DNA of 64,000 nucleotides from the NCBI RefSeq assembly GCF_900128985.1, contig NZ_FQUC01000001.1, positions 558,001 to 622,000 of the forward strand. The letters are read 5' to 3'. Positions 32,996-64,000 of the stretch are shown here, piece after piece (the stretch's first letter is position 1; each line of letters opens with the position of its first letter). Below the pieces are notes generated by a model, which was not told the origin of the DNA, made no database searches, and worked only from the letters and a program-made list of their open reading frames with translations. The translations under genes were made by a program, and so were the position numbers. The DNA is from Indolivaga macrotermitis. Its GTDB lineage: Bacteria; Bacteroidota; Bacteroidia; Bacteroidales; Dysgonomonadaceae.

Positions 32996-35461
32996 TTATT
33001 CTAAGTCTATAACAGTGATACCTGCTCCTCCGAACTGTACATGCTCGTCCTGATAGTGAGCCACTCCGTGTACAGTGCGCAGATAGTCACGGATAATCTG
33101 GCGCAAAGCTCCTGTACCTGTACCATGAAGAATGCGTACCCGTCCGGCATTAACCTGAATAGCATCGTCTACAAAATACATAACGGCCTGTAACGCTTCG
33201 TCTCCCCGCATACCTCTAACGTCTATATCTTGTTTGAAGTTCAGTTTCTTTTCATAAACCATATCTCCGGTTTGTGAGCTGACAAAGGTGCTTTTCTGAT
33301 TTTCGCGTTTCAGTTGATTCTTGCTGACACGTTCCAGGCTATCGAGCTTTACCGTCGATTTTATCATGCCGAATGCTACTACTGCATTTTTGCCCTGTAT
33401 CTCCATCACCTCTCCGGCTGACGATTGCCCTTTCATCCGTACATTATCTCCTACCGAGATAGATTCGGCTTTTTGTTCTTTAACTGCCTTTACTTTGTTC
33501 TTCTTATTCTTCTCTCTATCCTGTAGTTTCTGTATCTTACGCGCTATTTTATCATCGGTAACAAGTTCTTCCGATTCTATTTTGGCCTTGAATTCAGCCA
33601 GTCCTTTCCGTACAACTTTAGTCTTTTCTTTTTCGGCCTGAGCCTCTTTTATCTCACGGATAGTATTTTCAATCTTGGCGTTGGCATCCGATAACAGGCG
33701 TTGAGCCTCTTCTTTGGCCTGCTTGATAATATCCTTGCGTTGCTTTTCTATATCGGTCAGGTTGTTCTCGTAACGGGAAGTTATATCTTCCAGCTTTTTC
33801 TCCTGTATGCGGACGTTGTTCCGCTTCGATTCCCAATAGCGTTTGTCACGCACTATATCTTGAAGGTACTTATCCATATTGATATAGTCGCTGCCCACTA
33901 TTTCCGAAGCATCTGCGATTACATCTTCCGGTAACCCTATCTTCCGGGCGATTTCAATAGCAAAAGAACTTCCCGGGTTGCCTATCGACAAAGTAAACAA
34001 AGGTTGCATAATATGCCGGTCGTAAAGCATAGCGCCGTTCACTACCCCTTGATTTTCGTTTGCGAAATGTTTCAGGTTCTGATAATGGGTTGTTATTACC
34101 CCGAATGCTTTTCGTTCGTTGAAGCGTTTCAACAGCGATTCGGCAATTGCACCTCCGATCTGAGGTTCGGTTCCTCCTCCGAACTCATCTATCAACAGGA
34201 TTGTTTTCTCATCACAATTCCTGACAAAGAATTTCATATTGGTCAGGTGCGAACTGTAAGTACTCAGATCATTTTCGATAGATTGTTCGTCGCCTATATC
34301 TATAAATATATTACCGAAAATACCCACTTTCGAACTTTCGGCTAAAGGAATAGGCAATCCGCACTGAACCATGTATTGAAGCAATCCCACGGTTTTCAGG
34401 CAAACTGACTTTCCTCCGGCATTAGGCCCTGAAATAATAAGCAGTCGGTTTTCGTTATTTAGCCAGATGTCAAGCGGTATAATCTCCTTGCACTGTTTCT
34501 TGTGAGAAAGATAGAGTAGGGGATGTTTGGCTCTGTCCCATCCGATAAGCTGCTTGTCTTCGACAGTAGGATGTATCGCTCCAATCTCGATAGAAAGTCT
34601 GGCTTTAGCGCGAATAAAGTCTATCCATGCCAGAAATTCGTACGATTGAAGTATATCGGGTGTAAGAGGTCTTACCTCATTGGTGAATGCAATGAGTATC
34701 TTCACAATCTCCCGGCGCTCTTCGCTTTCCAGTTCCCTGATGCGGTTATTGGCTTCTACTACTTCGGCAGGTTCAATAAATACAGTCTTTCCGGTTGCCG
34801 ATTCGTCATGGACAATACCTTTCAACTTGCGCTTGAAAGCGGGGGCAACGGGTATCACCAGCCGTCCGTCGCGCATGGTGGGCGATACATCCTTTTCGAC
34901 TAACCCTTCCGATTGGGCGGCTCTCAATATACTGTTCAGTGTGCGGGATATGCTCCCTGATACCTGCGATATTTCTTTGCGGAGTTTGCTCAGTTCGGCA
35001 GATGCATTGTCTTTTATCCTTCCGTACTTGTCGAGTATCGAATCTATCCTGTTCAGAAGCTGGGGAAAGATCAATACATCGCCTGCCAGTTGTTGCAGGT
35101 GCGGATATGGCGTATTTTCTTCGTCTTCTTTGCGAAGAAAACTTACTATGTCTTTGATCGTTTGCAGAGACCTTCTGAGGTCAAATACGGCACTTTCGTC
35201 TAACCATGTACCTTCGACCCGGATATTCTTTAACGCAGGACGCACATCAAAGAAGTGGTTGACCGGAAAGTCATCCTCTTCCTGAATGATACGCATAAAT
35301 TCGTCGGTTTGCGACAACAGGCTCTGAACCGTATTGTAATCGGACGAAAAGCCCATTTCTTCGGTTTTCTCTATTCCCAAAGGGCTGAGGCATTTTTCGA
35401 TAATCAGATTGCGTATCTTGTCGAAACCTATTTTTTGTTCAAAATTATTTGGATATATCAC
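32996..35461 (-). CDS. mutS2: Endonuclease MutS2
   Basis: 821 residues. The ATPase core has the Walker A SGPNAGGKSV (near residue 345) and the downstream LLIDEFGGGTEP; a long coiled coil (about 510-640) and a C-terminal Smr nuclease domain (DVRGMRGDEALQ, LHGTGTGALRQIIRDYL) follow, and there is no mismatch-recognition domain. MutS2 acts on branched DNA or, in other bacteria, on collided ribosomes. It has its own -7 box at 35488-35495 and is followed by the Stealth gene. Confidence 0.95.
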   Translation of the reverse strand: MIYPNNFEQKIGFDKIRNLIIEKCLSPLGIEKTEEMGFSSDYNTVQSLLSQTDEFMRIIQEEDDFPVNHFFDVRPALKNIRVEGTWLDESAVFDLRRSLQTIKDIVSFLRKEDEENTPYPHLQQLAGDVLIFPQLLNRIDSILDKYGRIKDNASAELSKLRKEISQVSGSISRTLNSILRAAQSEGLVEKDVSPTMRDGRLVIPVAPAFKRKLKGIVHDESATGKTVFIEPAEVVEANNRIRELESEERREIVKILIAFTNEVRPLTPDILQSYEFLAWIDFIRAKARLSIEIGAIHPTVEDKQLIGWDRAKHPLLYLSHKKQCKEIIPLDIWLNNENRLLIISGPNAGGKSVCLKTVGLLQYMVQCGLPIPLAESSKVGIFGNIFIDIGDEQSIENDLSTYSSHLTNMKFFVRNCDEKTILLIDEFGGGTEPQIGGAIAESLLKRFNERKAFGVITTHYQNLKHFANENQGVVNGAMLYDRHIMQPLFTLSIGNPGSSFAIEIARKIGLPEDVIADASEIVGSDYINMDKYLQDIVRDKRYWESKRNNVRIQEKKLEDITSRYENNLTDIEKQRKDIIKQAKEEAQRLLSDANAKIENTIREIKEAQAEKEKTKVVRKGLAEFKAKIESEELVTDDKIARKIQKLQDREKNKKNKVKAVKEQKAESISVGDNVRMKGQSSAGEVMEIQGKNAVVAFGMIKSTVKLDSLERVSKNQLKRENQKSTFVSSQTGDMVYEKKLNFKQDIDVRGMRGDEALQAVMYFVDDAIQVNAGRVRILHGTGTGALRQIIRDYLRTVHGVAHYQDEHVQFGGAGITVIDLE

Positions 35462-35487: not shown

Positions 35488-35495
35488 CAAAGATA
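35488..35495 (-). promoter_or_regulatory. -7 box of mutS2
   Basis: TATCTTTG on the minus strand, 26 bp upstream of the mutS2 ATG. The GTGACA array begins 67 bp further upstream. Confidence 0.5.
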
Positions 35496-35562: not shown

Positions 35563-35650
35563 GTGACAAAAAGGTGACACGTGTCACCTTGGTATAATGC
35601 TTATCCATAGTTTTTTAACTCTCATAAAGTGACAAATTATACAAGTGACA
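35563..35650. repeat. GTGACA/TGTCAC array, copy A
   Basis: Five copies of one hexamer: GTGACA at 35563, 35574, 35629 and 35645, and inverted TGTCAC at 35582. The second and third sit in a perfect 20-bp palindrome (35571-35590) centred on ACACGTGT. The first two are exactly 11 bp apart. A similar array is at 63611-63693. Confidence 0.7.
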
Positions 35651-35723
35651 GATATTTTTTTTATTTTTCATAATAGTAATATCATTTTGTTTTCTTTATA
35701 GATAAAACTAAGGATGTTAATAT

Positions 35724-43257: not shown

Positions 43258-43297
43258 CTTAACAATAACGTAACAAAAGTGTTATAATTCTGTTACA
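43258..43297 (+). promoter_or_regulatory. Candidate Pho box upstream of pstS
   Basis: Four 7-mers with exact 11-bp period: CTTAACA (43258), CGTAACA (43269), TGTTATA (43280), TGTTACA (43291). A near -7 box TAATATTG follows at 43307-43314, 23 bp before the ATG. Two consecutive units match those before the porin. Confidence 0.65.
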
Positions 43298-43337
43298 TTT
43301 TCACAATAATATTGTATCAGAAAATAAAAGACAATTT

Positions 43338-61666: not shown

Positions 61667-63478
61667 TTAGTCTTCGTACATTTTATCGATAATATCTTTG
61701 TAACGCTCGGCTACAACCTTTCGTTTTATTTTTAACGTATTGGTAAGCTCCCCGTTTTCCATTGTGAATGGTTCGGGTAATAGGGTAAAACGTTTTACTT
61801 TTTCGTAGGGGGCAAGCGATGCCTGTTGCATTTCTATACGGGTAGCTATCATTGTATTTACTATCCTGTCATTCACAAGTTCTTCCCGGGTAGGATATTC
61901 AATGTCATGCTCTTTTGCCCATTTCTCTACGGCATCGTAGTCGGGTACGATCAATGCGCTGACAAACTTTACATCATCTCCTATAACAGATATCATATCG
62001 ATAAACTTGTCATTGGCTATTAATGTCTCGATAGCTTGAGGTGCGATGTATTTACCATTAGAAGTTTTAAACAGGTCTTTGATCCTTTCTTTCAGAACAA
62101 TTGTATTTCCGTTGAGAATTTCACCGGCATCACCGGTTCTGAAAAATCCATCCTCGGTAAAGGCTTTGTCCGTTTCCTGAGGCTTTTTATAATATTCTTT
62201 CATAACGGTACGTCCTTTTACAAGGATTTCGTTATTCTCGGGGTCTATCTTCACTTCCAGCCCCGGCATTACTGTTCCCACCGATGAGAGCATAAAGTTG
62301 CGATCGGGGTAACATGTTACCGTAGCGGTGGTCTCGGTCAACCCGTATCCTATGATTAACGGGATATTCACTGATTGCAGAAATATATTAATTGTATCGG
62401 ATAAAGGAGAACCGGCACAGGGGAATAGAACACCTTTTTCGATGCCGATAACCATTTTCAGTATGCGGAAAACAGTATTGTTATAGAAGAAGAATTTCAA
62501 GCGGTTTCCTAATGGCGGCCTCAATCCGTGATTCTTATAATCGAGATTATGTATTCTACCTGTTTTTATAGAGTCAGTATATAGCCAGCGCATAATACCT
62601 TTCGAACTGTCGATCTTTTCGTTTACACCCTGATATACTTTTTCCCAGAAACGTGGAACGCTACACATTACCGTCGGGCGTATTTGCTTGATCGATTTCT
62701 GTATTTCTTTCGCATCGGTATTTATGGCGATGGTCATACCTTTATGTAAGGTATAATAAGTCCATGCTTTTTCGAATATATGTGCGAGAGGAAGGAAATT
62801 CATCGACAGGTCTTTACTCGAAAGCTTTGGAAGGCGCTCGTCATGTATCCTGAATACTTCCATAAAAGAAGAGTGTAACAATACTACACCTTTAGGTTCG
62901 CCGGTAGTACCCGATGTGTAAATAATGCAGGCAATATCGGTTTCGCGGATCGACTTTAGCCTGACAGATACTTTTACCATCGAGTCGGAATTCTCACCCG
63001 AAGCAATAAAATCATCAAAATAGATAGAGGTTGTATCTTCGGGGTGTTTTTTTACTTTCGGATCAAATATAATCAGCCTTTTGAGTACATCACTCTGCAT
63101 CTGTACCTTGTGCGCATTATTATATTGGAACTGCTCTCCTACAAATAATGTATGTATCTGGGCATCATTCACAATATATTCGACTTGCTGTGGTGAAGCG
63201 GTTGCATAGATAGGAACTGATACTGCCCTGTTTGCATATGCCCCGAATTCGGACAATAAATACTGATACATGTTTTGCGAATATATACCTATGTTTTCCT
63301 GGGTTTCAACGCCGGCCTCAGCCATAGCCCAAGCTGTCTTCATGATATATTCCGAAAAACGGTTCCATGAAATTGATAACCATTTATTCTGTACATTGTC
63401 TCTGTATTTCAATACAGTTCGCGATTTGTATTTGGTTGCACGCTTGTGTACCAGTTCTGCAAGGTGATAGTAACTCAT
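61667..63478 (-). CDS. Long-chain fatty acid-CoA ligase
   Basis: 603 residues of the ANL superfamily. The ATP-binding loop is IIYTSGTTGEPKGVVLL, with YGLTETTATVTC and the hinge motif GFFRTGDAGEI, then a C-terminal GKYIAPQAIETLI. It activates long-chain fatty acids as acyl-AMP and then acyl-CoA at the membrane. The gene precedes hemW by eight bases. Promoter: TAACTTTA (minus strand, about 63515-63508) is a one-mismatch -7 box. Confidence 0.93.
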   Translation of the reverse strand: MSYYHLAELVHKRATKYKSRTVLKYRDNVQNKWLSISWNRFSEYIMKTAWAMAEAGVETQENIGIYSQNMYQYLLSEFGAYANRAVSVPIYATASPQQVEYIVNDAQIHTLFVGEQFQYNNAHKVQMQSDVLKRLIIFDPKVKKHPEDTTSIYFDDFIASGENSDSMVKVSVRLKSIRETDIACIIYTSGTTGEPKGVVLLHSSFMEVFRIHDERLPKLSSKDLSMNFLPLAHIFEKAWTYYTLHKGMTIAINTDAKEIQKSIKQIRPTVMCSVPRFWEKVYQGVNEKIDSSKGIMRWLYTDSIKTGRIHNLDYKNHGLRPPLGNRLKFFFYNNTVFRILKMVIGIEKGVLFPCAGSPLSDTINIFLQSVNIPLIIGYGLTETTATVTCYPDRNFMLSSVGTVMPGLEVKIDPENNEILVKGRTVMKEYYKKPQETDKAFTEDGFFRTGDAGEILNGNTIVLKERIKDLFKTSNGKYIAPQAIETLIANDKFIDMISVIGDDVKFVSALIVPDYDAVEKWAKEHDIEYPTREELVNDRIVNTMIATRIEMQQASLAPYEKVKRFTLLPEPFTMENGELTNTLKIKRKVVAERYKDIIDKMYED

Positions 63479-64000
63479 TTCTATTTTAACTTATGGTATC
63501 AGACAGTAAAGTTAGGTTAATTAATCGTTAATTGGTGCTAAATGCTTGATTTTTATTATTGTCTACGCATTAATTGTTGTAGCAATATATATTGCTTATA
63601 CACTGATAACGTGACAAAAACGTGACACTTGTGTCACCCATGTCACCTATTTATATGCTTTGTTATAAATGTTTTGTTTCTTGAAAAGTGACATTCGTTA
63701 TACATATAGTAATATATTATATATATATGAGTAGTTGTTTTCATTCTTCCTTTTATTGTATAGATAAAGTAAAAACAAATAGTTTACCTGAAGAAGTTTT
63801 GTTTTAAGGTTCGAGAGCAGTTTGTTGTTCTTTAAGGAGTGATTGTTTTTCAACACAGGATATCGTGAAGTTTATTTCACAGAGTTGAAAAAGATATATT
63901 CCGCTATTGTAGGGGCAGGGCTCTGCTCTGGCCGATAATAAGGGCTTTAACACAAAGCAGACGAAGAAGGCACTAAGTGCACTATCTTGTTTTTCAAGAC
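63479..64000. other. 522-bp gene-free region at the right end
   Basis: No gene of credible length is seen. It holds the possible ligase promoter, the GTGACA array copy B (63611-63693), TAGTAATAT (63707-63715), TATAGATAAA (63759-63768) and a leader-like stretch with small hairpins (GTGAA/TTCAC at 63865-63880, GCAG/CTGC near 63920, GCACT/AGTGC near 63971). The last part resembles an untranslated leader for a gene beyond the window. Confidence 0.5.
63611..63693. repeat. GTGACA/TGTCAC array, copy B
   Basis: Five copies: GTGACA at 63611, 63622 and 63688, TGTCAC at 63632 and 63641. The first two are 11 bp apart, as in copy A, and the second and third form an inverted repeat (GTGACAC-TT-GTGTCAC). 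A region of similar motifs follows, as at 35674-35706. Confidence 0.7.

Follow-up and report, generated by a model that had tools for sequence, protein, structure and literature searches.

In the passages of the literature that concern the closest described systems, the BIME-1 element of enterobacteria is presented as two inverted REPs around an IHF-interacting sequence (PMC2817692), and the Correia or NEMIS elements of Neisseria as carrying terminal inverted repeats and putative promoters, to which the longer form adds an IHF site (PMC2229807). The passages on the TAACTGA direct repeats of marine Beggiatoaceae report approximately 170 sets that precede unrelated genes, some of which are essential; five Bacteroidetes also have such repeats (PMC4679880). 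The arrays described here are located in a 64-kb window (the whole stretch of DNA that was analyzed) and throughout the genome that contains it, referred to below as the own genome. They may be filed as a variant of dispersed regulatory repeats, and the passages on BIME-1, Correia and TAACTGA repeats describe no two-sided phased array. Searches of openly licensed PubMed Central papers also returned no description of such an array. The element is probably a dispersed cis-regulatory module in which an array of half-sites for a putative protein X, bent by IHF or HU, would regulate the gene downstream.

The resemblance to BIME-1 extends to oppositely oriented repeats, an IHF-type middle, an intergenic location, many copies and a species-specific spelling (PMC2817692). 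REPs, however, are described as single imperfect palindromes moved by RAYT transposases (PMC2817692), whereas the present arrays are rows of half-sites at steps of 9–11 bp that flank a fixed 41-bp spacer and point at the downstream gene. Membership in the BIME/REP class was rejected because the conserved unit in the sequence logo is a 6-bp half-site and the GT(A/G)G head is absent. With the Correia/NEMIS elements, the arrays share a small dispersed form, an internal IHF-type site, putative promoters and, in some copies, end-like terminal repeats (PMC2229807). In contrast to those elements, the terminal repeats accompany a minority of own copies (20 of 78, one of them probably by chance) and the conserved part is an internal array with no known counterpart. 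The TAACTGA repeats are contiguous direct heptamers that lie right before the start codon and are thought to act in translation (PMC4679880), whereas the arrays are built of repeats in inverted orientation on either side of a spacer and precede likely promoters.

Two Array Copies in the Window

Copy A occupies positions 35563-35706; in its proper orientation it runs along the minus strand in the direction of mutS2. At its far end lies a TTTATCTATA box (35697..35706; TATAGATAAA on the plus strand), followed by an A-rich tract (35653..35669; T-rich on the plus strand) that is also present in a logo of 45 elements. The left block has an outer half-site (35645..35650) placed 16 bp from the next, where a step of 9 is usual, and closes with a TGTCAC (35629..35634) that both the sequence and the logo identify as the last half-site of the block, at model position 0. 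A 41-bp spacer (35588..35628) with a weak IHF-like center separates it from the right block. The first half-site of the right block, GTGACA at position 47 (35582..35587), forms the inner half of a 20-bp palindrome (35571-35590), and two more half-sites, 11 bp apart, are found at 35574-35579 and 35563-35568. The features named in the sequence-only reading were all confirmed where it had placed them; in plus-strand terms, these are GTGACA at 35563, 35574, 35629 and 35645, TGTCAC at 35582, the palindrome, and TATAGATAAA at 35697-35706.

The same reading claimed that the motifs recur in a second copy, which is borne out at 63611-63768. In the minus-strand reading, copy B has its TTTATCTATA box at 63759..63768, TGTCAC at position 0 (63688..63693), a 41-bp spacer (63647..63687) and a right block (63611..63646) with half-sites at 63641, 63632, 63622 and 63611. 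A profile search identified exactly two full copies in the window, with scores of 54.5 and 54.2 bits; the best of the other independent matches had 11.6 bits. The bare hexamer GTGACA is present 19 times in the window against 18.8 expected; thus, it is the arrangement that is enriched and not the hexamer itself. The earlier proposal that the unit is GTGACA as opposed to a CRP site was right with respect to the hexamer but not to its exact spelling, since the half-site is GTNACA. Similarly, the stretch that had been reported is real, but the element reaches past its limits. A weak partial profile match of 10.9 bits in another intergenic gap (43260-43330) is perhaps a decayed copy or a chance occurrence.

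Geometry and Anatomy of the Element

The suggestion that the element is scattered in the genome was confirmed at no fewer than 82 distinct places in the own genome, derived from 91 matches among those listed. Arrays are also present in congeners and in a second genus, so the two copies are neither the only ones nor without counterparts in relatives. The proposed genome-wide search for paired GTGACA at 11 bp identified 22 occurrences of GTGACA-N5-GTGACA and none of the reversed pattern. When up to one mismatch was allowed, TGTCAC-N41-GTGACA was found at 65 places in the whole own genome, versus 2 in the same comparison. This geometry is not produced by the choice of loci, since the 47-bp step from TGTCAC to GTGACA recurs among 20 loci picked solely for their 11-bp direct repeat (11 pairs, with 46 or 48 bp in three more and never shorter).

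The PhoB box consists of TGTCA direct repeats at 11 bp upstream of phosphate genes, with which TGTCAC-N5-TGTCAC shares the 11-bp step and, very nearly, the repeated word. Unlike the PhoB box, the arrays have 9-bp steps, inverted blocks, a 41-bp spacer and a free N position. A PhoB box was rejected because, while 11-bp repeats are present, the blocks are inverted and the named targets are not phosphate genes.

Fifty-nine own regions were fetched, one of which (L217) had no core and was left out. In 50 of the remaining 58 cores, a ATAGATAA box is found within 130 bp of the core on exactly one side, and in none is it found on both sides. The logo and the search profile were built from the 45 cores that had both a 41-bp gap and a box giving the orientation. 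On the strand of the downstream gene, the element is composed of TTTATCTATA, the A-rich tract, TGTNAC repeats at 9 bp, an interval of exactly 41 bp, and GTNACA repeats at 9–11 bp. In the logo, AAAA spans -25 to -22, the TGTNAC repeats fall at approximately -18, -9 and 0, and GTNACA is at 47, 56 and 67; fainter copies of the word follow at around 78, 89 and 99, about 11 bp apart. The TTTATCTATA box lies farther upstream than the A-rich tract at a variable distance. The spacer itself contains another palindrome, TAA-N4-YTGAT...CAR-N4-TTA, whose A33 is the same in all 45 elements.

The consensus for IHF binding is WATCARNNNNTTR, and the inner palindrome of the spacer fits it in both directions. 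All nine letters are matched in 14 of 59 spacers (0.4 expected) and at least eight in 38 of 59 (8.7 expected), where the expected values were obtained from 50 rounds of letter shuffling of each spacer. For 34 of these 38 spacers, the match occurs at two mirror-image positions. With the consensus at a fixed place, the family as a whole is predicted to carry an IHF-binding site, and five matches to PF00216, the HU/IHF family, occur in the own genome. At the family position, copy B matches 8/9 letters and copy A 6/9, with 7/9 elsewhere in the spacer of copy A. The motif thus points to a bending of the spacer, and does so weakly for copy A itself.

Conservation is centered on the half-sites. Among 15 recent copies, which were located through their half-sites so that the figure is biased upward, the fixed half-site letters are 95.5% identical, versus 76.8% for the N positions and 70.9% for other columns (p = 1.4e-9). 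As a check on this bias, 21 own places were found by the terminal repeat alone, and 19 of them lie within 310 bp of an array. Half-sites are also kept where the terminal ends have decayed. With respect to the letters that are conserved, these data agree with the earlier proposal of a site for an undescribed DNA-binding protein; the protein bound there is putative.

Downstream Genes and Likely Promoter Boxes

The next gene is co-directional with the element in 102 of 117 cases (78 own and 39 congener elements), with gene neighbors taken from a simple ORF caller. Eight own elements have no box, and for three of these an arbitrary direction was corrected by the strand of the profile match; when all eight are dropped the count is 94 of 109, and where the profile alone gives the direction it is 49 of 59. 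In Bacteroidetes, the -7 promoter box is TAnnTTTG. Between the array and the start codon of 93 elements, this box is found 32 times on the gene strand versus 6 on the other strand, and 19 of the 32 are located no more than 51 bp from the start codon. According to the consensus, TATCTTTG (35488..35495, minus strand) is the likely -7 box of mutS2.

Downstream of copy A, mutS2 (32996..35461, minus strand, start codon mechanically listed) matches TIGR01069 with 797.7 bits against a cut-off of 400. Copy B is followed by an AMP-binding acyl-CoA ligase-like gene (61667..63478, minus strand), for which all NCBIfam matches are below cut-off. Other targets above the NCBIfam cut-off are groES, rplM, clpB, argB, acetylornithine carbamoyltransferase, guaB, pyrG, pyrC, valS, fhs, miaB, hisC, metN, dtd and porV, with argD-like and rnpA-like targets falling below. 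Gene content such as PorV is in keeping with an assignment of the own genome to the Bacteroidales. No shared pathway was found among the targets: the 64 own targets have matches to 150 Pfam families, none of which recurs in more than three targets, so the elements do not mark a regulon of a single pathway. On the other side of copy A is pyrH; no element was found upstream of this gene in the congeners, where it has a different upstream neighbor.

The genes that adjoin elements include an AraC/GyrI-type regulator (L177), with a 33% identical neighbor in the second genus, and a sigma-54-type response regulator (L171). One element of the congener G002 is upstream of a phoR-like gene, the match being below cut-off. 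Among the adjoining genes that could be named by family, no candidate for the binding protein was singled out. Two own loci (L206 and L308) are 92% alike over approximately 940 bp and represent a duplicated element-plus-gene unit: in both, an element precedes a gene, and the two encoded proteins have 91% identity.

Distribution in Congeners and Other Genomes

The whole-genome profile searches scored no more than 150 candidates for each genome, and a palindromic element may be counted once per strand. Counted in this manner, with some places matched on both strands, the own genome has at least 159 matches, G001 has 114, G002 at least 161 and G004 107. Three of the five congeners are therefore rich in arrays (107–161 matches among the candidates scored), with half-sites that drift in spelling; of the remaining two, G005 is array-poor, with 5 matches, and the incomplete G003 has one. 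The profile also matched seven genomes of a second genus in the same family, with 143–155 matches among the candidates scored in four of them and 18–65 in three; for nine genomes of other genera or families the figure is 0–5. Seven of the 16 genomes surveyed (four of the second genus and three others) had been picked for an earlier match to a strict pattern, which was present in 10 of 298 genomes. Scores in the second genus are lower, the best being 40.7 bits, but several of its matches have the same layout together with a TATAGATAAA box. The exact word GTGACA is nearly absent from the congeners, where the N of the TGTNAC half-sites is C, T or A.

A congener sample was made from the best-scoring places listed, and not at random, with 19 elements from G001, 19 from G002 and one from G004. 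In 36 of these 39 elements, TTATCTAT is found within 200 bp upstream, versus 2 of 39 at control positions. An element is present upstream of dtd in three species with the blocks retained and the spacers different, and a HAD-type gene is a target in two species. The G001 and G002 samples have 4 of 19 targets in common, and only 1 of 19 and 2 of 19 targets of the congener samples are shared with the own sample. The own genome (L209) shares a cobT-like target with the second genus (L374), and G004 shares another target gene with that genus.

As a tentative extension, a global regulatory system common to the two genera might be envisaged. Arrays of half-sites folded by IHF could provide each genome with a single module that serves scores of unrelated promoters and that transposon ends copy to new ones; its spelling would drift between species in step with an undescribed binding protein.

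Proposed Function

In the mechanism considered most probable for the element, a putative protein X would bind cooperatively to GTNACA half-sites, 9–11 bp apart, in two blocks that face one another over exactly 41 bp. A protein of the IHF/HU family would bend the middle of the spacer and so join the blocks, and the folded complex, just upstream of the promoter, would regulate the downstream gene. The complex is more likely to activate broadly needed genes from an upstream position than to act as a pathway-specific switch, and given such targets, activation appears likelier than repression. Within the own species, part of the family would have been carried to new places between transposon-type ends.

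This mechanism is consistent with the rigid geometry, the conservation of the half-sites, the IHF consensus, the five HU/IHF matches, the co-directionality with the next gene, the strand bias of TAnnTTTG, the sharing of dtd and cobT-like targets, and the presence of TTATCTAT upstream. The lack of a common pathway among the targets, the few targets shared with congeners and the weak IHF-like center of copy A stand against it. If the element is regulatory, a DNA-binding system with broad effect would govern scores of promoters per genome, in a phylum from which few global regulators are known. The element would then also be a bacterial example of transposon ends bringing a ready-made regulatory module to new promoters. 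Elements without genes are easily missed by gene annotation.

Mobility and Alternative Explanations

Recent dispersal is evident in the own genome, where some copies are 70–91% alike across 280–420 bp. End-like matches to CAACTACTGATTCGCATTA are present at 20 of 78 own loci, that of copy A being probably due to chance. Relative to the core, a right end is found at +135 to +155 in 12, an inverted left end at -217 to -245 in 7, and both in 5. A 5-bp target-site duplication can be read by eye in L336 and L320 and is not exact in L331 and others. As the recent subfamily lies between terminal repeats of the transposon type, the arrays have probably also spread by transposition. Units of approximately 515 bp that have the same ends and no array are found in G001 (L331, L336), one of which has inserted into an array element, where inspection by eye shows a duplication of 5 bp. 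Since the same ends flank array-free units, they are assigned to a separate family of transposons, which acquired an array in the own species. In G002, CAACTACTGATTCGCATTA ends are near many contig ends. At one G002 locus (L326), such an end abuts a transposase gene that is presumably IS4-like; a second (L332) also has this family of ends.

The mobility of the element raises the prospect that it is purely selfish, in the manner of a MITE or Correia-like element, with repeats and an IHF-like site that serve its own transposition and an upstream placement that reflects tolerated insertion. Such an origin would account for the near-identical subfamily with its inverted terminal repeats and for the few targets common between species. 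It is nevertheless unlikely, since the terminal repeats are those of a separate family that also exists without the array, 58 of the 78 own elements have no such end, the half-sites are conserved after the ends have decayed, and the orientation towards the next gene is strongly biased.

This bias in orientation also bears on a role in organizing the chromosome. Sites comparable to those of nucleoid occlusion or of the BIME type, bound by a structural protein and near promoters incidentally, could be expected to occur at about two copies per 64 kb, as in the window, to precede unrelated genes and to have an IHF-like center. However, the orientation of the element follows the downstream gene and orthologous positions are partly retained upstream of the same gene, which makes a structural role improbable.

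An RNA hairpin or attenuator formed from the inverted blocks, which can be fully complementary, is highly improbable. The facing N bases are unpaired in 8 of 49 own spacers and 5 of 7 congener spacers, with a further G-U pair in 2 and 1, respectively, and it is this absence of covariation between the N positions of facing half-sites that disfavors a hairpin. In many elements, likely -7 boxes are located downstream of the array, so the array would often not be transcribed. Least probable of all are sites for a CRP-family regulator (GTGA-N6-TCAC), which GTGACACGTGTCAC within the palindrome of copy A resembles, because the inner gap of the palindrome varies among copies while the steps of 9, 11 and 47 bp are kept, a fixed palindrome being rejected with TGTCAC at +19, +21 or +30 from the first GTGACA, and because the Bacteroides Crp motif predicted in the relevant passage, TATGTTnTAnAACATA, is different (PMC3878776).

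Look-alike Repeats

A named scan for the array-like pattern returned 102 stretches, mainly from other phyla. Look-alikes are present in three Prevotellaceae/Bacteroidales MAGs (L045 and L053; L083 and L121; L051), with TGTCAC or CGTCAC, a spacer center of the ATTCAA type, and rows of GTGACG or GTGACA; the gap in L045 and L053 is 36 bp. Citromicrobium, Altererythrobacter, Qipengyuania or Alteriqipengyuania contribute 28 of the 102 loci (L043, L046, L049, L055, L061, L062 and others), many of which have GGTGACA-N4-GGTGACA-N2-TGTCACC, a separate dispersed repeat. Three further loci (L048, L110 and L125), from two Planctomycetota MAGs and one Aminicenantes MAG, have a near-identical GTGACAAAATGGTGACA..TGTCAC with similar flanks and represent another dispersed or transferred repeat.
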